Of a stretch of DNA of 64,000 nt, positions 7,359-60,413 are shown piece by piece. Each line of letters opens with the position of its first letter. Within the stretch, counting starts at the first letter, position 1. The notes under the pieces are model-generated. The model searched no databases. It was not told the DNA's origin and saw nothing but the letters and a program-made list of their open reading frames with translations. Origin of the DNA: a bacterium (lineage in GTDB: Bacteria > Cyanobacteriota > Vampirovibrionia > Gastranaerophilales > UBA9971). Position numbers and translations under genes: made by a program. Where the stretch lies: assembly GCA_037147175.1 (NCBI GenBank), contig JBAWVS010000007.1, forward strand, positions 7,642-71,641. Reading direction: 5' to 3'.

Positions 7359-7388
7359 AAATCCTGATAAAAATATCAAACCATTTCT

Positions 7389-7458
7389 CCGCAAAGCCTT
7401 CCAACATATGATGTTACATCCATGTGGCCAAAGTTTATAGCCAAATGGCTAAAGTTTT
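7389..7458. repeat. Direct repeat C copy 2, remnant of the GIY-YIG unit with an internal deletion
   Basis: 7389-7403 matches the 3' end of the GIY-YIG-like gene (CCGCAAAGCTTTCCA at 1930 versus CCGCAAAGCCTTCCA here). 12 bp further on, 7416-7458 matches 2332-2374, upstream of that gene. It looks like the same unit with about 390 bp deleted from the middle. Confidence 0.5.
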
Positions 7459-7602
7459 ATGGTTTTATGACCTTTGGATAACTTATTCTTAAACTTATTT
7501 AGAATATTTATCTAATTTTGAAATAGGCTTGTAATTTTCAAAGAATAGATTATAATAAAATTAGATTGATAAACACTTGTAATTTTCTAAAAGGGTTTTA
7601 TA

Positions 7603-7896
7603 GTGAAATTTAAAGTAGATAAATTAAAAGAAGTTCAAAAGGAATATAACAGCCTTTCTAAAGCCCCACAACTCCTTTTGCAGGACGATTACAATATTAT
7701 TAGTATAAAAGGTATCGAATTTGTTAAAACCAGATATTTAGCACCTAAGCTATTTGAGATTAAGACTAAAGATTTACGCTCATTATTCAAGTATGAATCC
7801 GACCAAATCATAATAATAGGATTAATTTACGAGAAGGATTCTCAAAAAGCACCTAATTATTACATCAAACTAGCTCAAAAAAGATTAAAACCATAG
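7603..7896 (+). CDS. RelE/HigB-like (Gp49-like) toxin candidate
   Basis: A 97-residue basic protein with 'LAPKLFEIKTKDLRSLFKYE' followed by 'IIIIGLIYEKDSQKAPNYYI' and a C-terminal 'KLAQKRL'. This matches the Gp49-like/HigB toxin pattern: an E-(I/L)-R/K strand, a hydrophobic strand and a 'K-x-x-Q-K-x-P' ending. Members cleave mRNA at the ribosome. It starts with GTG at 7603, with AAAGGG 7 bp upstream. The antitoxin candidate begins 11 bp after its stop, giving the toxin-first order of HigBA modules. Confidence 0.65.
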   Translation: MKFKVDKLKEVQKEYNSLSKAPQLLLQDDYNIISIKGIEFVKTRYLAPKLFEIKTKDLRSLFKYESDQIIIIGLIYEKDSQKAPNYYIKLAQKRLKP

Positions 7897-7907
7897 GAGA
7901 TAAAGTT

Positions 7908-8231
7908 ATGAATAAATATGTTTATGTTAAAGATTCAGAAGGATTTGTAACTAAAAAACTTGCCGACAAAGTTGAAACTGATGAAACAATTATTAGTAAA
8001 GAAAACTTTGAGCAAATTTCAGGGATTGAATATTATAAAAAAACTTTTGGCAGGGGTGGAGCAAGAGAAGGTGCAGGTAGAAAAAAACAATATACTTCTA
8101 AAAAGAGAGAAACCTTTGACCTCGAAGAATCTGATATTATCAGTTTAAAAGAATATGCAAAGAAACATAAAATCAGCAAAAACAAAGCTCTACATGAAGC
8201 TATTAATCGTTTAACAAAGCTAGAAGCTTAA
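7908..8231 (+). CDS. Antitoxin candidate with an AT-hook-like patch and ribbon-helix-helix-like C-terminus
   Basis: A 107-residue protein. Its middle carries 'GRGGAREGAGRKKQYTSKKR', a Gly/Arg/Lys stretch like DNA-binding tails, followed by 'ETFDLEESDIISLKEYAKKH' and 'KISKNKALHEAINRL', which read like a ribbon-helix-helix fold (beta strand, helix, turn, helix). AGGAG lies 8 bp before the ATG. It is placed immediately after the HigB-like toxin, so it is most likely the antitoxin and autorepressor. The fold is an inference from pattern. Confidence 0.6.
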   Translation: MNKYVYVKDSEGFVTKKLADKVETDETIISKENFEQISGIEYYKKTFGRGGAREGAGRKKQYTSKKRETFDLEESDIISLKEYAKKHKISKNKALHEAINRLTKLEA

Positions 8232-8235
8232 ACAG

Positions 8236-8257
8236 TTCCTAGCAAGGTGACTAGGAA
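8236..8257. terminator. Terminator-like hairpin between convergent genes
   Basis: TTCCTAG, 8-base loop, CTAGGAA, followed by TTGTAATCATT. It lies 5 bp past the antitoxin stop and before the convergent DUF3892 gene. The T-run is short, so its strength is uncertain. Confidence 0.45.
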
Positions 8258-8284
8258 TTGTAATCATTATTCGAATTTTTTTAT

Positions 8285-8596
8285 TTAATATTCTAGTAAA
8301 TTGCCTAAATTATCCTTTTTAGTTTTATTTGCATCAGTTCTTAGATAATAAGTTCCATCAATCAATACTTTTTCAACTTTTGCACCTTTATTCCAATTCC
8401 CATCACTATTTTTTGTGATAGTACAAAAAGTTTTTCCACTATCAATTTTGGTTATTACGTCAGTTCTTTTCCAGTCGCTACCTGTACCAACGGAATCATC
8501 ATTATCTGGATGAACAAATACGCTATCAATGTGTTTAGTAGTAGCTGTTTCTACGTATCTGACTTTTGAAATAAGATAATCAGCCCATTTTGCCAT
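8285..8596 (-). CDS. DUF3892-family protein
   Basis: A 103-residue protein opening 'MAKWADYLISKVRY' and containing 'HIDSVFVHPDND', 'WKRTDVITKIDSGKTFCTIT' and 'YLRTDANKTKKDNLGNLLEY', the full length of a DUF3892 domain. The family is widespread in small accessory gene clusters and has no known activity. AGGAG precedes the ATG. It is downstream of, and co-directional with, the Cys-rich small protein at 8649-8858, 52 bp away, so the two probably form an operon. Confidence 0.75.
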   Translation of the reverse strand: MAKWADYLISKVRYVETATTKHIDSVFVHPDNDDSVGTGSDWKRTDVITKIDSGKTFCTITKNSDGNWNKGAKVEKVLIDGTYYLRTDANKTKKDNLGNLLEY

Positions 8597-8648
8597 TTTA
8601 CATACTCCTTTTTCTCTAAATTCCTAATTTGCTGAGAATATTCGTTTT

Positions 8649-8858
8649 TTATCTGGTATGACAAGGCTTACAACAATAATAGCAGCCATCAACATTGCTA
8701 TAATATTCTTTTGCTTTTTTAACCGCATCTCTACAGTTATCGAAAGCTCCTAGATATTGTCTATTGAGAACATCTGGCAAATAAGAACATTCCTCACAGT
8801 GAACTTCATGTTCTCCAGTTGACTGTGCATTTTGGTTTACATAATAACTTTTAAACAT
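8649..8858 (-). CDS. Small Cys/His-rich protein
   Basis: A 69-residue protein with the conserved-looking frame 'YYVNQNAQSTGEHEVHCEEC' then 'SYLPDVLNRQYLGAFDNCRD' and 'GCYYCCKPCHTR'. Cys and His pairs at both ends (HEVHCEEC near 18-24, CYYCCKPCH at 59-67) suggest a metal site or a small zinc-binding fold. I recall similar small proteins in bacterial accessory regions but know no function. AGGAG precedes the ATG. It is first in an apparent operon with the DUF3892 gene. Confidence 0.6.
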   Translation of the reverse strand: MFKSYYVNQNAQSTGEHEVHCEECSYLPDVLNRQYLGAFDNCRDAVKKAKEYYSNVDGCYYCCKPCHTR

Positions 8859-9052
8859 AATTAAACTCCTTTTTTATATCAAACTATTTCCCTTTTTTAC
8901 GTTATTTCCCCAATACAAGGGCTCTAAATTACTCAAAATGCTTGCGTAACTCCTGTTACTTAAGTAATAATAAATTAATAATGGTTTTTAATTTTTGATT
9001 ATTATAAAATATGAGTTAAAGCTAAAGAAGTGGGATGTTTGAAATAAAATAG
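8859..9052. other. Right boundary of the accessory island, no gene seen
   Basis: An AT-rich spacer between the divergent Cys-rich small protein gene and murC. It contains no open frame of note and no tRNA sequence. The junction between island and housekeeping genes probably lies here, but no matching attachment repeat was found by eye. Confidence 0.4.
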
Positions 9053-21392: not shown

Positions 21393-23942
21393 ATGAAAAT
21401 AAACAATTTAAACAAAATTCAATTTGTAGCGCCAATTAATTCTGATGACAAAACAACTAAATCTGTTTTAAATAATAATATTATTTGTAATAACCAGACT
21501 TTTGACAGAAAAATGCCAAGCTTGCATAACTTGAAAGCTAACTATCTTGTGAGTTTTGGAGTAGAACGATCATTTAATCGACCTGAAGTAGGTTCGAGAA
21601 AAAATGAAGAAAAATATTTAAACATACCATTTTATGAAAAAAATGCAAATGATCTGGCAATATTGCTTGGTCCTGACAAGGATGCAATTTTGACTTATGA
21701 CGATAAAACTGCTTTACCGGAGTTGTCATTTCATAGATTTGCAAGCAATGTAAAAAACGGCAATTATAGAAAACAAGGCTTTCAACCTGATACAAATATA
21801 GTAATTTTTAGTCCAACAGACTGGATACGTATAAATAAAGATCCTGAAGTTGCTTTAAGAACTGCAATAAACAAACTTCCAGATCCCGAAGCAAAAACTG
21901 TTGTCCTTATAAAGGATATGAGAACATATTTAGAATATACAGTTGGAAATAAAGATGCACATTCTCTTTATTCAGGTAAATTTTTAGGTGATAATGTCCA
22001 AATTGTTGGATTGATGGATAATTCTTCCTATCAAGAAATAAAAGAATCAAGTTCAATTAAAAAGGATATTAATTTCCTTAAATTGTTCGGAACAGTGAAT
22101 TTAAGTGTTCCCGGAGAAACTGAAACAAAAGAAATACTAAAAAAACAGGGCAAAATATTAAATACTATTATAAAAAGATACGAACCTACAAAAGTTACTA
22201 TATCCGATAATGCTATTGATAAAGCTGTTGATTTGTCAGCTCAAAAAATTGGCGGAGAGTTCCCCGGAAAAGCTTTGAATGTAATAGATTTAGTAATTTC
22301 AGCAAAAGTTAATGAAGTGAAACAAAAAAATCCTAATAACCCAATAAGCGTCAATAGTTCAGACGTTACAAGATTTTTCGAAAAACATTATGGTATTTTA
22401 GAATCACTTGTTGACAAAAATTCTCAATTTAAAAAAGTAGAAATTCCTAAAACAAGATTTTCAGATGTAGGCGGTGCTTCAGACGTAAAAGAAATTCTTA
22501 AAGACGGAATTTTAGCTTATATAAAAAATCCTAAAGAATATTTAAAACACAATACAAAAGCGCCTAAAGGCACATTATTTTACGGTGGTCCGGGCACAGG
22601 AAAGACATTATTAGCAAGAGCACTTGCAGGAGAAGCAGGAGTGCCTTTCTTTAACGCCACAGGCAGTGATTTCGTAGAAGTATACGTTGGAAAAGGAGCT
22701 GCAAGGGTTAGAGAATTGTTCAGAGAAGCCAAAAAAGCTGCTGAAAGTTCTGATAAGAAAACTGCAATTATCTTTATAGACGAGATTGACGCTGTTGCAA
22801 AAAAACGTGGTAATGGTGAAGGTGGAGGAGCTCAAGAGCATGATAATACATTAAATGCGCTTCTTGCTGAAATGGACGGATATAATAAAGACTCCAAAAC
22901 ACATGTTATCGTTATTGGTGCTACAAACCGTAAAGATATTCTTGATCCGGCTATTCTGCGTCCGGGAAGATTTGATGATTCTCTTGAAGTCCCAAATCCG
23001 ACAAGGAACACAAATAGCAGGCTTGAAATATTAAAAATACATACTAAAAATGCACCGTTTAAAGATGCAGCTGATAAAGAGAAAATAATAAACGAAGCTG
23101 CAATAATATCAGCAGGATTGAGCGGAGCAGAATTAGCTGATATGGTAAGCAAGGCAGCAAAGGTAGCAACTAAAAGAGAAAATGATAAATTTATTACTCA
23201 TAATGACTTAATAGAAGGATATCTTCAAGTAAAAGCAGGTCCTATTAAGCATTCGGACGAATCTGACTTAATTAAAACTGTAACTGTTGCACATGAATGC
23301 GGACATGCAAGCACCGGTATAATTCTTAATCATATACTTAAACAGGATATATCATTTATTACTCAGCAGGAAAGAGGCAATTTTCTGGGAGCTGTTTTCT
23401 ATAAACCGGGTAAAGATATGGGTCAGCCAAACTTTGATTCAGTTATTGCTTCTGCTGCAATGAGTTATGCAGGCGGCATAGCAGAAAGCAGATTTCAAAG
23501 CGGCGGACATGATGCAGGTGTTTCTGGTGACCTCAGTAATGCTACAGAATTAATAGAAAAGGCTGTTGAAAATTGGGGATTAGGACCTAATGTAGGTTTT
23601 ACAAAGGTAACTGACAAGAATCGAGATTTATATAAAACTGAAATTAAAGATGATGTTAGGCTATTTACAAAAACCGCAGAAAAAATATCTAGATTAATTA
23701 CTGACTATAACCGAGATTTTATAAGCAAGTATGTAGTCGACTATAAAGCTAATATTGGTAAAGCAGGGAAAACACTGTCAGGTGAAGAATTTAAGAAACT
23801 TCACGATGAATGGCTAAAAAAATCAGGTAAAGATAAAGAAGAGCCGCTATTGCAACAAAAAATCAGTATCTTAATAGATTCTGCAAGAAACGGCAAAATA
23901 CTAACTGATGAAGAATTAGATAACAAAATTAAAAATAAATAA
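21393..23942 (+). CDS. FtsH-like AAA/M41 zinc protease with a degenerate ClpA/B-D1-like N-terminal region in place of the membrane domain
   Basis: 849 residues. 1-60: polar leader with '[12 protein letters not shown]'. About 130-300: resembles the second half of a Clp/Hsp104 D1 AAA domain: Walker-B-like 'TVVLIKDM' (169-176), sensor-1-like '[15 protein letters not shown]' (202-216), then the lid '[20 protein letters not shown]' and '[12 protein letters not shown]' (262-301); no Walker A, and the DE pair is not intact. 350-610: FtsH AAA with 'GGPGTGKT' (398-405), pore loop '[13 protein letters not shown]', 'IIFIDEID' (459-466), 'GATNR' and 'RPGRFD'. 615-850: M41 peptidase with HECGH (634-638) and D713 in '[12 protein letters not shown]' as third zinc ligand. 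No membrane helices, unlike FtsH. Followed by a strong bidirectional terminator. The fused degenerate module is an interpretation by pattern. Confidence 0.85.
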
Positions 23943-23946
23943 TAAA

Positions 23947-23983
23947 AAAAGCGGGTAATTGATTTCAGTCATTACCCGCTTTT
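23947..23983. terminator. Bidirectional intrinsic terminator
   Basis: AAAAGCGGGTAAT, loop, ATTACCCGCTTTT, flanked by A- and T-tracts. It lies between the protease gene and the convergent membrane-protein gene, so it serves both. Confidence 0.9.
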
Positions 23984-28251: not shown

Positions 28252-29733
28252 ATGAGCATTCAGAACCTTTACAATTCAAACTACCTTAACAATTCCGGCT
28301 CTTATCAAAGTTATGCTTATGCGCAGGCAGGAATGTTTGGTTTTCAACAACAATCCACTGTTTTTGGAAATTGTCTACCTCAGCAAGCACAACAAGGCAG
28401 ACATCCACATCATCAACGTCATCAGCATCCTCATCACCCTCAACAGCAAGCTAATAATGCAAACCAAAATATGTCTTCACCTCTTAATTCACTATTACCA
28501 ATGTTACTTAGCTTATTAGGAAATAATCAAAACTGCCAAAGACCAGGTTATCCTCAAGGTTATCCTCAACAATATGCCAACCAAGGTGGCAACCAAAATT
28601 CATTATTAAGCGGATTAGCTTCATTATTTAGCGGACTTGGCTCAACTCAACAAGGTTATTCCCCATATCAAGCCAACTATGGCAATGCAAATAACGGATT
28701 TGGCGGATTTGGCGGATTCAACCCAACACAATCATATTCGCCTCTCCAAGGTAATTTCGGTTTTGCAAATAATGGATGCGGTAATACAAATAACGGATTT
28801 GGCTCTGCATTCAACGGATTTGGCGGAACACAAGGCTTTCAAGGTGATTTCAGTAATTCAAGTTTTGGATTAGCTTTATTATACGGAGAATTTAATTCAT
28901 CACAACAAAATTATCCAACATTTCAAGGTAATTACGGAAATATAAGTAATCATCATAATGCTTGCTCAAACAGCTATACAGAAAATGCATGGCCTCCAAT
29001 TACACAACAAAACGATTACGCAGAATCTAACCAAGAAGCAACCATACCTCCTATGTGTTCACATCATGATGCCGTAGGATGCAGACCTACAGATATTGAA
29101 ACAAATATCAGCGATACATCTGTCTGGGGCGATCCTCACTATCAAGCAAAAGGTTCCGACGGTACTACTGACATTAACTTTACTCATAACGGTACTACAG
29201 GCGATACATATAACGTATTTCAAGGCGACGGATATGAAGTAGACGGAAAATACGGATTAGCCGGCAATGACGTAAACAAAATATTAGACGCAAATATTAA
29301 AGACGGCAATGATTTGATTAATTACAATGTAAATGGAGAAACATCAATCAACGGAAAAAAATTAAATGATGGAGAAACAATAACACTGGCAGACGGAACA
29401 AAAATTAGCCAAAAAGGTACAAATATGACAATGGATACCAAAGATGGTAATTCTTCAATAGGTTTCAGAAATAATGATGGTATCTGCCTTGATCCTACAG
29501 GAAAATTCACCAACATCGGCGGTATACTCGGAACAGCAATAGCTCAAAATAAAAATCTAACAGAAGAAGAAGCAAATAAATTCGATATTACAAACACCAA
29601 AACAGCTGCTTCAGACGCAAAAACAACTGCTGCCGATACAAAAGCAACCGCTGCTGATACAAAAGCTGCCAAGAAAAAAGAAACTACAAAAAAAGAAACT
29701 ACAAAAAAGGACACAGCTACCACAAAAGCTTAA
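28252..29733 (+). CDS. Low-complexity His/Gln/Asn/Gly-rich protein with a WGDPH (DUF1521-like) domain
   Basis: 493 residues, no signal peptide. 1-120: Gln/Asn-rich with a His cluster ('GRHPHHQRHQHPHHPQQQ', about 49-66). 120-235: short repeats such as 'NNGFGGFGGF' and 'SPLQGNFGFANNG'. 291-440: a folded part starting 'VWGDPHYQAKGSDG', with 'DTYNVFQGDGYEVDGKYGL' and 'SINGKKLNDGETITLADGTK', matching DUF1521-like domains often found in secreted or surface proteins. 455-493: Ala/Thr/Lys-rich tail of short repeats ('DTKATAADTKAAKK', then KKETT twice). AAGGAG precedes the ATG. Without a Sec signal, export would need another route. The His patch could bind metal. Confidence 0.7.
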   Translation: MSIQNLYNSNYLNNSGSYQSYAYAQAGMFGFQQQSTVFGNCLPQQAQQGRHPHHQRHQHPHHPQQQANNANQNMSSPLNSLLPMLLSLLGNNQNCQRPGYPQGYPQQYANQGGNQNSLLSGLASLFSGLGSTQQGYSPYQANYGNANNGFGGFGGFNPTQSYSPLQGNFGFANNGCGNTNNGFGSAFNGFGGTQGFQGDFSNSSFGLALLYGEFNSSQQNYPTFQGNYGNISNHHNACSNSYTENAWPPITQQNDYAESNQEATIPPMCSHHDAVGCRPTDIETNISDTSVWGDPHYQAKGSDGTTDINFTHNGTTGDTYNVFQGDGYEVDGKYGLAGNDVNKILDANIKDGNDLINYNVNGETSINGKKLNDGETITLADGTKISQKGTNMTMDTKDGNSSIGFRNNDGICLDPTGKFTNIGGILGTAIAQNKNLTEEEANKFDITNTKTAASDAKTTAADTKATAADTKAAKKKETTKKETTKKDTATTKA

Positions 29734-39944: not shown

Positions 39945-40322
39945 ATGAATGTAAGTAGCATAAAAAATAGCAATTTAGCCTTTGGCTCCTTTGGCGTTGT
40001 TGTACAAAATTTACAGGACGAAAATAAAACATTCGGGATACTTAAACAAAGTATTAATGAATCAAATCCGGAAACAAGAATAACTCTACATAAAACTAAA
40101 TTATTTCCGGGATTTAACAGTGAACCCAGATATTCAATATATGAAGTAACCGGACGGAATATGGAGATGGAACAGCGTTTGCTTGATACTTTTAAAACTT
40201 CAGGACTAAGAGTTATACCTACAGAGGTTTCTCCCGAAACAAGGGCGGCAGAAGGCTTAAAAAATCTTACAAATGCCGCTAAAGTTCAAGAAGAAATTGT
40301 AAAATTAGATATAAATGCTTAA
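39945..40322 (+). CDS. Small lineage-specific protein with an N-terminal SFG motif
   Basis: A 125-residue soluble protein beginning 'MNVSSIKNSNLAFGSFGVVV', then 'TRITLHKTKLFPGFNSEPRY' and a helical C-terminus 'AAEGLKNLTNAAKVQEEIVK'. The start shares the N-terminal polar leader plus FG/SFG seen in other proteins here. No domain recognised. AGGTGG precedes the ATG. The PEBP-like gene follows 36 bp later on the same strand. Confidence 0.55.
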   Translation: MNVSSIKNSNLAFGSFGVVVQNLQDENKTFGILKQSINESNPETRITLHKTKLFPGFNSEPRYSIYEVTGRNMEMEQRLLDTFKTSGLRVIPTEVSPETRAAEGLKNLTNAAKVQEEIVKLDINA

Positions 40323-45944: not shown

Positions 45945-46769
45945 ATGGAAATATGGGACAAAAATATGATATTAGGGCAAATTAGATTTATTTCACCATA
46001 TATTTCGCAAAAGCAAAATAATCCAATCAACACAACTAAAACAATTTCTTTTGGAACCCAGCTTGTTAATGTTGACAACCTAAAATTCACAAACCATGCA
46101 AAAGAACGTATGAAAGAAAGAAATATCAGTTTAGAAGATATAAAAAAAGGAATTAAAGATGGTAAAGCTTATTACGAAAAAACAAATACTCGTGTTGTAG
46201 TCCTTGCAAAAGGAAATGAAGGCAAATCATTGTTTGTAGTTATGGATCCGACAAGAACAACCGTTATAACCGTTTATCATTCGAACTACGATAAGTATAA
46301 CAGTAAATTTGTAATTACAAATAATGGAACACTACTAAAATCAGGTTATAAATTTTTTCCTTTGTCTGAAACTCACACACCGAATAGAATAGAAACCAGA
46401 AACGGCGGTTATAAAGATGTATTAATTGATGGTACTGTTGTTAAAGAACATATAATAACGGAAAATGGCGGTTATAAAGATGTATTATCCGATGGTACCG
46501 TTATAAAAGAACGAACAATAACAGAGAATGGCAGTTATAAAGATGTATTAAACGGTAAAGTAGTAAAAGAATATATAGTAACTGAAAACGGCTACAAAGA
46601 AATAGGAACTGACGGAAAACCGATGAAAGTTGTTGTTAAAGATAAGAATAATCAATATTATTTCTATTTACCGGCAGAAGGAATAATAAAGCACAGAGAA
46701 ACCAGATACACTAAAGATAAACCTGAATTTAATCAACTTAAAAAAAAGTTTTTTTCTGAATATAAATAA
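45945..46769 (+). CDS. SFG-motif protein with a DUF4258-like domain and tandem YKDVL repeats
   Basis: 274 residues. N-terminal leader with 'NTTKTISFGTQLVNVDNLKF' (SFG motif). About 43-120: DUF4258-like fold, 'FTNHAKERMKERNISLEDIK' + 'KGIKDGKAYYE' and 'VVVLAKGNEGKSLFVVMDPT' + 'RTTVITVYHS', related to BrnT/RelE-like small RNases and to toxin tips of polymorphic toxins. About 150-225: three and a half repeats of about 21 residues ('NGGYKDVLIDGTVVKEHIIT', 'NGGYKDVLSDGTVIKERTIT', 'NGSYKDVLNGKVVKEYIVT'). The start could be the ATG at 45966, which has GGGA upstream; 45945 has no ribosome site. Function unknown; it may be an effector or repeat-presenting protein. Confidence 0.6.
   Translation: MEIWDKNMILGQIRFISPYISQKQNNPINTTKTISFGTQLVNVDNLKFTNHAKERMKERNISLEDIKKGIKDGKAYYEKTNTRVVVLAKGNEGKSLFVVMDPTRTTVITVYHSNYDKYNSKFVITNNGTLLKSGYKFFPLSETHTPNRIETRNGGYKDVLIDGTVVKEHIITENGGYKDVLSDGTVIKERTITENGSYKDVLNGKVVKEYIVTENGYKEIGTDGKPMKVVVKDKNNQYYFYLPAEGIIKHRETRYTKDKPEFNQLKKKFFSEYK
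46401..46640. repeat. 63-bp in-frame tandem repeat inside the DUF4258-like gene
   Basis: Units 46401-46463 (63 bp), 46464-46526 (63 bp), 46527-46586 (60 bp) and a diverged partial unit from 46587. Each opens AA(C/T)GGCGGTTATAAAGATGT or a close variant. The repeats keep frame, so copy number can change without breaking the protein. Confidence 0.8.
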
Positions 46770-60143: not shown

Positions 60144-60413
60144 ATGTTAATGTCAGTAAGATTTCACAACCCTTCTTTTGGGTGTTCTAAGTGTGAACTT
60201 GGTAAAGAGGCTGTAGTTACACTAGTTGATAAAGGTCTTAGCCGTGAAGCTGCAGAAAACCTTCTTGACTATTACGCCCCTACTAATGGGAAAAATCATG
60301 TTCCTTTGGACTTTCCTATTCCACACGATGTGCTTATTAAGAATGTTTCTCGTAAAATTCTTGCTAATCCGGACATTGTTATTAAGCAATTAAACGAAAA
60401 AGGAATATATTAA
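60144..60413 (+). CDS. Small protein with an SFG motif and Cys pair
   Basis: An 89-residue protein, 'MLMSVRFHNPSFGCSKCELG', then 'VDKGLSREAAENLLDYYAPT' and a C-terminal helix 'KILANPDIVIKQLNEKGI'. C14-x2-C17 directly follows SFG. No family recognised. AAAGGG is about 10 bp before the ATG. It is convergent with the universal stress gene, 6 bp between stops. Confidence 0.55.
   Translation: MLMSVRFHNPSFGCSKCELGKEAVVTLVDKGLSREAAENLLDYYAPTNGKNHVPLDFPIPHDVLIKNVSRKILANPDIVIKQLNEKGIY

Follow-up and report, generated by a model that had tools for sequence, protein, structure and literature searches.

Organization of the locus

The stretch of DNA that was analysed (64,000 nucleotides, referred to below as the window) carries on its forward strand a long open reading frame at 21393-23942, which is free of internal stops. 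The gene, its leader, its C-terminal catalytic parts and the hairpin that follows it are arranged as follows.

21393..23942, + strand: whole gene, type A Clp-D1/FtsH fusion protease (849 aa plus stop; from the open reading frame, its translation and a full-length homologue 47-48% identical)
21393..21620, + strand: polar leader, predicted to be disordered, residues 1-76 (pLDDT <50)
21531..21560, + strand: 10-residue leader block, residues 47-56 (recurs in type A and B-short homologues)
22428..23258, + strand: FtsH-type AAA module, residues 346-622 (Pfam AAA, TIGR01241, PAN/FtsH folds with Z 26-29)
22584..22607, + strand: Walker A, GGPGTGKT (sequence)
22680..22691, + strand: pore loop, VYVG (F-V-G in FtsH, KYVG in homologues; sequence)
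22767..22790, + strand: Walker B, IIFIDEID (sequence)
22959..22976, + strand: second region of homology (SRH) with arginine finger, RPGRFD (sequence)
23259..23939, + strand: M41 zinc peptidase and C-terminal helical tail (Pfam M41, alignments)
23292..23306, + strand: zinc-binding and catalytic motif HECGH (H634, E635, H638; H, E and H invariant in alignments)
23529..23531, + strand: third zinc ligand, D713 (invariant in alignments)
23947..23983, + strand: terminator-like hairpin, AAAAGCGGGTAAT / ATTACCCGCTTTT, directly 3′ of the gene (read from the sequence; its loop exceeds the rule of the hairpin scan)

The back half of the product, residues 346-849, consists of an FtsH AAA module followed by an M41 peptidase. 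Pfam AAA matches residues 395-534 (E = 1.7e-40) and Peptidase_M41 matches residues 628-769 (E = 1.6e-14, over the cut-off), while Walker A, Walker B and the SRH arginine finger are all present; the initial annotation had described both parts as intact FtsH, and the motif set is indeed complete. The NCBIfam model FtsH_fam (TIGR01241) extends over residues 347-770 with 370 bits, which is below its equivalog cut-off of 600 bits. Pfam, NCBIfam and a tree of the AAA-M41 region all assign this second AAA module of the protein to the FtsH type and not to the Clp-type D2.

No membrane segment is present anywhere in the 849 residues: the highest 19-residue Kyte-Doolittle mean is 0.96, versus at least 2.46 (the lowest maximum in the set) in 26 of 26 true FtsHs from Gastranaerophilales. 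This agrees with the earlier statement that the first 350 residues lack such a segment, and homologues show no hidden N-terminal membrane domain. A Clp N-terminal domain was not seen in the protein either, residues 1-76 being predicted by AlphaFold2 (AF2) at low confidence. We regard it as almost certain that the layout is that of an FtsH AAA/M41 protease in which a degenerate Clp D1-like module takes the place of the membrane helices.

Upstream lies ispG, separated from the gene by 165 bases, and downstream the hairpin is followed by a convergent gene, an arrangement that looks like a single-gene unit. A conserved neighbour that could serve as adaptor or substrate was considered and rejected, as no neighbouring gene is common to type A homologues and the B forms described below show synteny at the level of the genus only. 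Within the leader, the block at residues 47-56 follows the consensus N/H-L/I-K/R-A-N-Y/F/M-L/I-x-F-x-G across type A and B-short homologues.

Polar leaders similar to residues 1-76 and ending in SFG, FKG or FSG also occur on some unrelated proteins of these genomes. Leaders ending in SFG, FGS or FKG were found on unrelated proteins in the window (39945-40322, 45945-46769 and 60144-60413) and at other loci (L050:18628-18996; L145:2641-3270 and 7374-8972; L141:906-1553, which looks like a phosphopantetheine adenylyltransferase with a leader extension of this kind). In genome G020, leaders of the form M-x-I-x-x-I ... polar ... SF[KS]G precede further unrelated proteins (L160:9848 and 12472; L169:6894; L174:5082 and 7485; L176:1009). 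Crude motif counts gave no significant N-terminal excess of the SFG leader over internal windows (Fisher p = 0.12 and 0.30), and its interpretation as a genome-wide signal was dropped. Similar leaders are carried by Cdc48/p97-like single-AAA proteins of about 500 aa that are widespread in the order (L051:4638-6125 on contig 9 of the source genome, G000; L054:6900-8480 in G020), and a VSFGGE leader is found on a protein of 1045 aa that has three AAA modules but lacks M41 (L053:2569-5703 in G010). Elsewhere in the window, 28252-29733 encodes a 493-aa protein, possibly structural or of the cell surface, whose repeats are rich in glycine, asparagine and glutamine and which also contains a D-P-H-Y-x-A-K-G-S-D-G block.

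The Clp D1-like front module

Between the leader and the FtsH-type AAA module lies a region with the following predicted features.

21621..22427, + strand: Clp D1-like AAA module, predicted nucleotide-dead, residues 77-345 (hhalign, PDB profile search, AAA_lid_9 and ClpA matches, predicted fold)
21681..21716, + strand: place of the D1 P-loop, residues 97-108, beta-1 and loop lacking GxxxxGK[ST] (sequence, order of strands and helices)
21897..21917, + strand: D1 Walker B strand, TVVLIKD, residues 169-175, catalytic DE changed (alignment with IIMFIDE of ClpB/ClpC; strand 169-173)
22110..22427, + strand: Clp-type D1 lid lacking the M-domain insert (AAA_lid_9, Clp alignments, helices 242-339)

Two library models identify this region directly: AAA_lid_9, the Pfam family for the lid of Clp first AAA domains, matches residues 254-312 above the cut-off (E = 1.6e-6), and the NCBIfam ClpA model TIGR02639 matches residues 185-429 (E = 2.4e-14). 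When a D1 profile built from five homologues was compared with one of 28 genuine Clp D1 sequences, hhalign returned a probability of 96 (E = 4e-9, score 66), and 25 column-shuffled control profiles gave probabilities of at most 1.1% and scores of at most 20.8. The comparison of the front module with AAA families that had been proposed at the outset thus finds Clp D1. Searched against all PDB sequences, the D1 profile matched ClpC best (E = 1.4e-9), then the D1 domains of ClpB, ClpA and Hsp104, and almost nothing else. A wider profile run on the genomes of relatives recovered the family first, and next, at E of about 1e-9, open reading frames whose length of 820-890 aa matches that of the relatives' true Clp ATPases.

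AF2, run with seven sequences, predicted a whole AAA fold over residues 77-345 with pLDDT mostly between 50 and 90. Strands at 97-102, 135-139, 169-173, 202-209 and 232-236, with helices interleaved, and a helical lid at 242-339 reproduce the order of an entire AAA domain. The initial annotation had likened residues of about 160-300 to the second half of a Clp D1; the Clp D1 assignment stands, and the extent has to be widened to an entire AAA domain with five predicted core strands. Because the Walker A region of D1 falls outside the local hhalign alignment, its equivalence to the P-loop rests on the predicted fold. Structure searches are compatible with tandem AAA modules and do not amount to proof (p97-type alignments of about 600 columns, a Rix7 match spanning residues 76-614); the lists they return are filled by the FtsH AAA part, so D1 is barely tested by fold alone.

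DDKTALP stands where the P-loop would be, and IKD replaces IDE at the end of the Walker B strand. Neither a Walker A nor a DE Walker B was found in D1 in any of 36 family entries (best domains only, at least two of the entries being duplicates), so the loss of Walker A and the altered catalytic DE noticed at first sight extend to the family. Taken together, these comparisons of sequence and predicted fold identify residues of about 77-345 as a nucleotide-dead AAA module descended from the first AAA domains of Clp/Hsp100 proteins.

An order-wide family in three forms

Family members were detected in 66 of 192 sampled Candidatus Gastranaerophilales genomes (profile rows at E of 1e-15 or better). 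Among the matches listed for 60 genomes of the class, none outside the order spanned the length of the family, matches there beginning at the FtsH AAA module, and in 244 genomes of the phylum every match at 1e-10 lay inside Gastranaerophilales. The family is therefore kept order-wide in Gastranaerophilales and was found nowhere else among the sampled genomes. A phage origin was rejected after a scan of viral contigs gave no relative.

Three forms can be distinguished. Type A comprises the gene at 21393-23942 and those of G012 and G023, and its full-length entries have an intact FtsH motor and zinc site. A full-length homologue from another family of the order (L036/L055) is 47-48% identical to the product studied here. 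The type A copy in G001 is cut off by the end of its contig, and a type A-like copy in G002 (L038) is short in front and holds undetermined bases. Type B-short is represented by a second, 900-aa paralogue in the source genome (contig 46; L050:2714-5413, - strand) and by counterparts in G001 and G002; it keeps the FtsH Walker A and the zinc-binding HExxH and has lost the Walker-B glutamate and RxGRF. Type B-long, of about 980-1060 aa, is the form of most other species, with an N-terminal helical domain, D1, FtsH AAA and M41 with HExxH in that order. In its FtsH AAA module, Walker A has become GSGRR-like and Walker B IENF-like and the arginine finger is lost, so that both AAA modules of B-long lack all three elements while the zinc site is kept. 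The 30 loci retrieved by D1 alone (three type A, one B-short and 26 B-long) all retain HExxH, and as a sample they were accordingly not chosen for the zinc site.

The N-terminal domain of B-long matched Clp_N in hhalign with a probability of 73% (E = 3e-5; shuffled controls at most 0.3%), is helical in the predicted fold, and gave weak profile matches to Clp N-domains in the PDB. It is probably a Clp N-domain, which would explain the origin of the family as that of a Clp front end.

In the AAA-M41 tree, built by a quick method and with long branches flagged, the family stands apart from true FtsH (SH-aLRT 99), and B-short and B-long each form one group; the comparison of the M41 part with true FtsH that had been suggested initially thus separates the two. 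The canonical membrane FtsH that was to be looked for elsewhere in the genome is present on contig 39, and the source genome also encodes a ClpB-type ATPase (contig 23) and a ClpC-type ATPase (contig 1).

In six B-long pairs, dN/dS estimated by the Nei-Gojobori method, with the deepest pairs near saturation of synonymous sites, was 0.036-0.096 for the dead D1, 0.013-0.041 for the dead D2 and 0 to 0.114 for M41; the leader and N-domain were looser in most pairs than the dead modules. The dead D1 and D2 of B-long are under strong purifying selection, and are therefore retained for a purpose that is not ATP hydrolysis. Among type A genes no two sequences are close enough to form a pair, so selection was measured on B-long only and is carried over to type A by family membership.

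Proposed function and relation to known proteases

Clp enzymes stack D1 on D2, and D1 aids hexamer formation and bears the N-domains that receive substrates; in FtsH the membrane part aids assembly. We consider it reasonably likely that the type A protein is a soluble, cytosolic FtsH-type AAA protease in which a Clp-type N-D1 front is joined to an FtsH AAA-M41 back, the dead D1 ring acting as a platform. The FtsH motor would stand in place of the Clp D2, with the protease covalently attached beneath it, and the protein would assemble into a hexamer in which one ring is stacked on the other. In place of the membrane domain, the dead D1 ring might keep the six subunits together and offer substrates or adaptors, while the FtsH ring would hydrolyse ATP and pull substrate into the M41 chamber. 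The predicted model (AF2 pTM 0.46) gives nothing firm on the placing of D1 relative to the FtsH ring. The sister B forms, in which the peptidase would work but the motor is weakened or dead, could serve as partners or gates.

The B-long branch is the more surprising part of the family. As B-long is widespread without A, its partner, if it has one, must be true FtsH or another protein. On a broader reading, which we put forward tentatively and with some doubt, Gastranaerophilales possess a membrane-free, two-tier M41 family with a Clp front and an FtsH back, in which B-long lost ATP binding in both rings under selection and would be an M41 protease in an AAA-shaped shell, working without ATP hydrolysis of its own.

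Types A and B-short might instead co-assemble as mixed hexamers, by analogy with cyanobacterial and chloroplast FtsH/FtsHi, B supplying peptidase sites and a docking surface and A supplying ATP hydrolysis and arginine fingers. Both forms occur in each of the three genomes of the genus, the leader block LKANYLxFxG is common to the two forms, and B-short has kept Walker A in the absence of the Walker-B glutamate and RxGRF. However, many genomes have B-long without any A, and in G012 and G023, which hold A, no full-length B was found (G023 being only 82% complete). Pairing of A and B is thus not obligatory in the family, and we judge such mixed assembly unlikely.

That D1 is a roleless, decaying remnant of an accidentally fused Clp gene is very improbable. 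Its nucleotide-binding motifs are gone and D1 identity between type A members is 33% or less, and the shortened front of the G002 copy, with its undetermined bases, suggests that D1 may be dispensable there; but almost all full-length members, from several families of the order, have the module, its complete fold is predicted, and the low dN/dS in the six B-long pairs disfavours decay. Still less credible is a front module that arose by duplication of a second FtsH-type AAA rather than from Clp, in the manner of the membrane FtsHs with three AAA modules that sister families have: tandem FtsHs do exist in the class, but the D1 profile reaches an hhalign probability of only 0.2% with the AAA domain of true FtsHs versus 96% with Clp D1, the Pfam lid match and the PDB matches point to Clp, and a probable Clp_N domain precedes D1 in B-long, and an FtsH-type origin was rejected. 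Chimeric assembly or a mis-joined contig, conceivable for a metagenome-derived draft of 109 contigs, can practically be dismissed, as independent homologues in other genomes and assemblies (L036/L055 at 48% identity, and L037) show the same layout in full length.

Searches of open-access papers for FtsH in Gastranaerophilales and for soluble, chimeric or pseudo-ATPase FtsH found no description of the layout, in line with the initial impression that no such protease had been described. The family crosses the line by which AAA proteases are divided, with FtsH as a single ring in the membrane and Clp as a soluble double ring. Its members are natural experiments on the purpose of each ring: type A combines a dead D1 with a working FtsH motor, and B-long has a conserved shell and peptidase without a motor. 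The family is further relevant to the loss of membrane anchoring by hexameric proteases, and it gives mostly uncultured bacteria of animal guts and groundwater a proteolysis system specific to their order.

Tandem AAA modules ahead of M41 are also found in membrane FtsHs of other families of the class (L132-L134), but those have three FtsH-type AAA modules with Walker motifs and hydrophobic N-terminal segments. These triple-motor FtsHs are themselves unusual (L132:1544-4966, - strand; L133:2241-5594, + strand; L134:929-4387, - strand; and L135), with about 1120-1150 aa and an M41 domain with HEAGH. The chloroplast Ycf2-FtsHi and Orf2971-FtsHi motors likewise consist of FtsH relatives that have gained large modules and whose catalytic parts are in part dead; they have lost protease sites, kept ATPases and form a membrane complex (PMC9020784), whereas B-long is the reverse, with the zinc site kept, both AAA modules dead and no membrane anchor.

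With FtsH and the other AAA proteases (TIGR01241, MEROPS M41; FtsH, i-AAA, m-AAA), the protein shares an AAA module with Walker A/B, SRH and pore loop, the M41 HExxH with its distal Asp, and the order AAA then M41. It differs in lacking transmembrane helices or an intermembrane domain, the N-terminal transmembrane domain being a typical feature of FtsH (PMC9020784), in its roughly 345 extra N-terminal residues including the Clp D1-like module, in its score below the family cut-off (370 versus 600 bits) and in its separate tree branch. With no transmembrane domain and a score under the equivalog cut-off it is outside FtsH as defined, yet FtsH is among its ancestors. With the D1 of ClpA, ClpC and ClpB (Hsp100 class I) it shares the order of the AAA fold, the sensor-1 strand and the Clp-type lid with a 10-residue block, and B-long sisters probably share the N-domain as well; it differs in the absence of Walker A, the Walker-B DE and the M-domain, in having an FtsH AAA for D2, and in a peptidase that is fused rather than recruited as ClpP. 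Having neither a working D1 nor a Clp D2 it is outside Clp, yet Clp too is among its ancestors.
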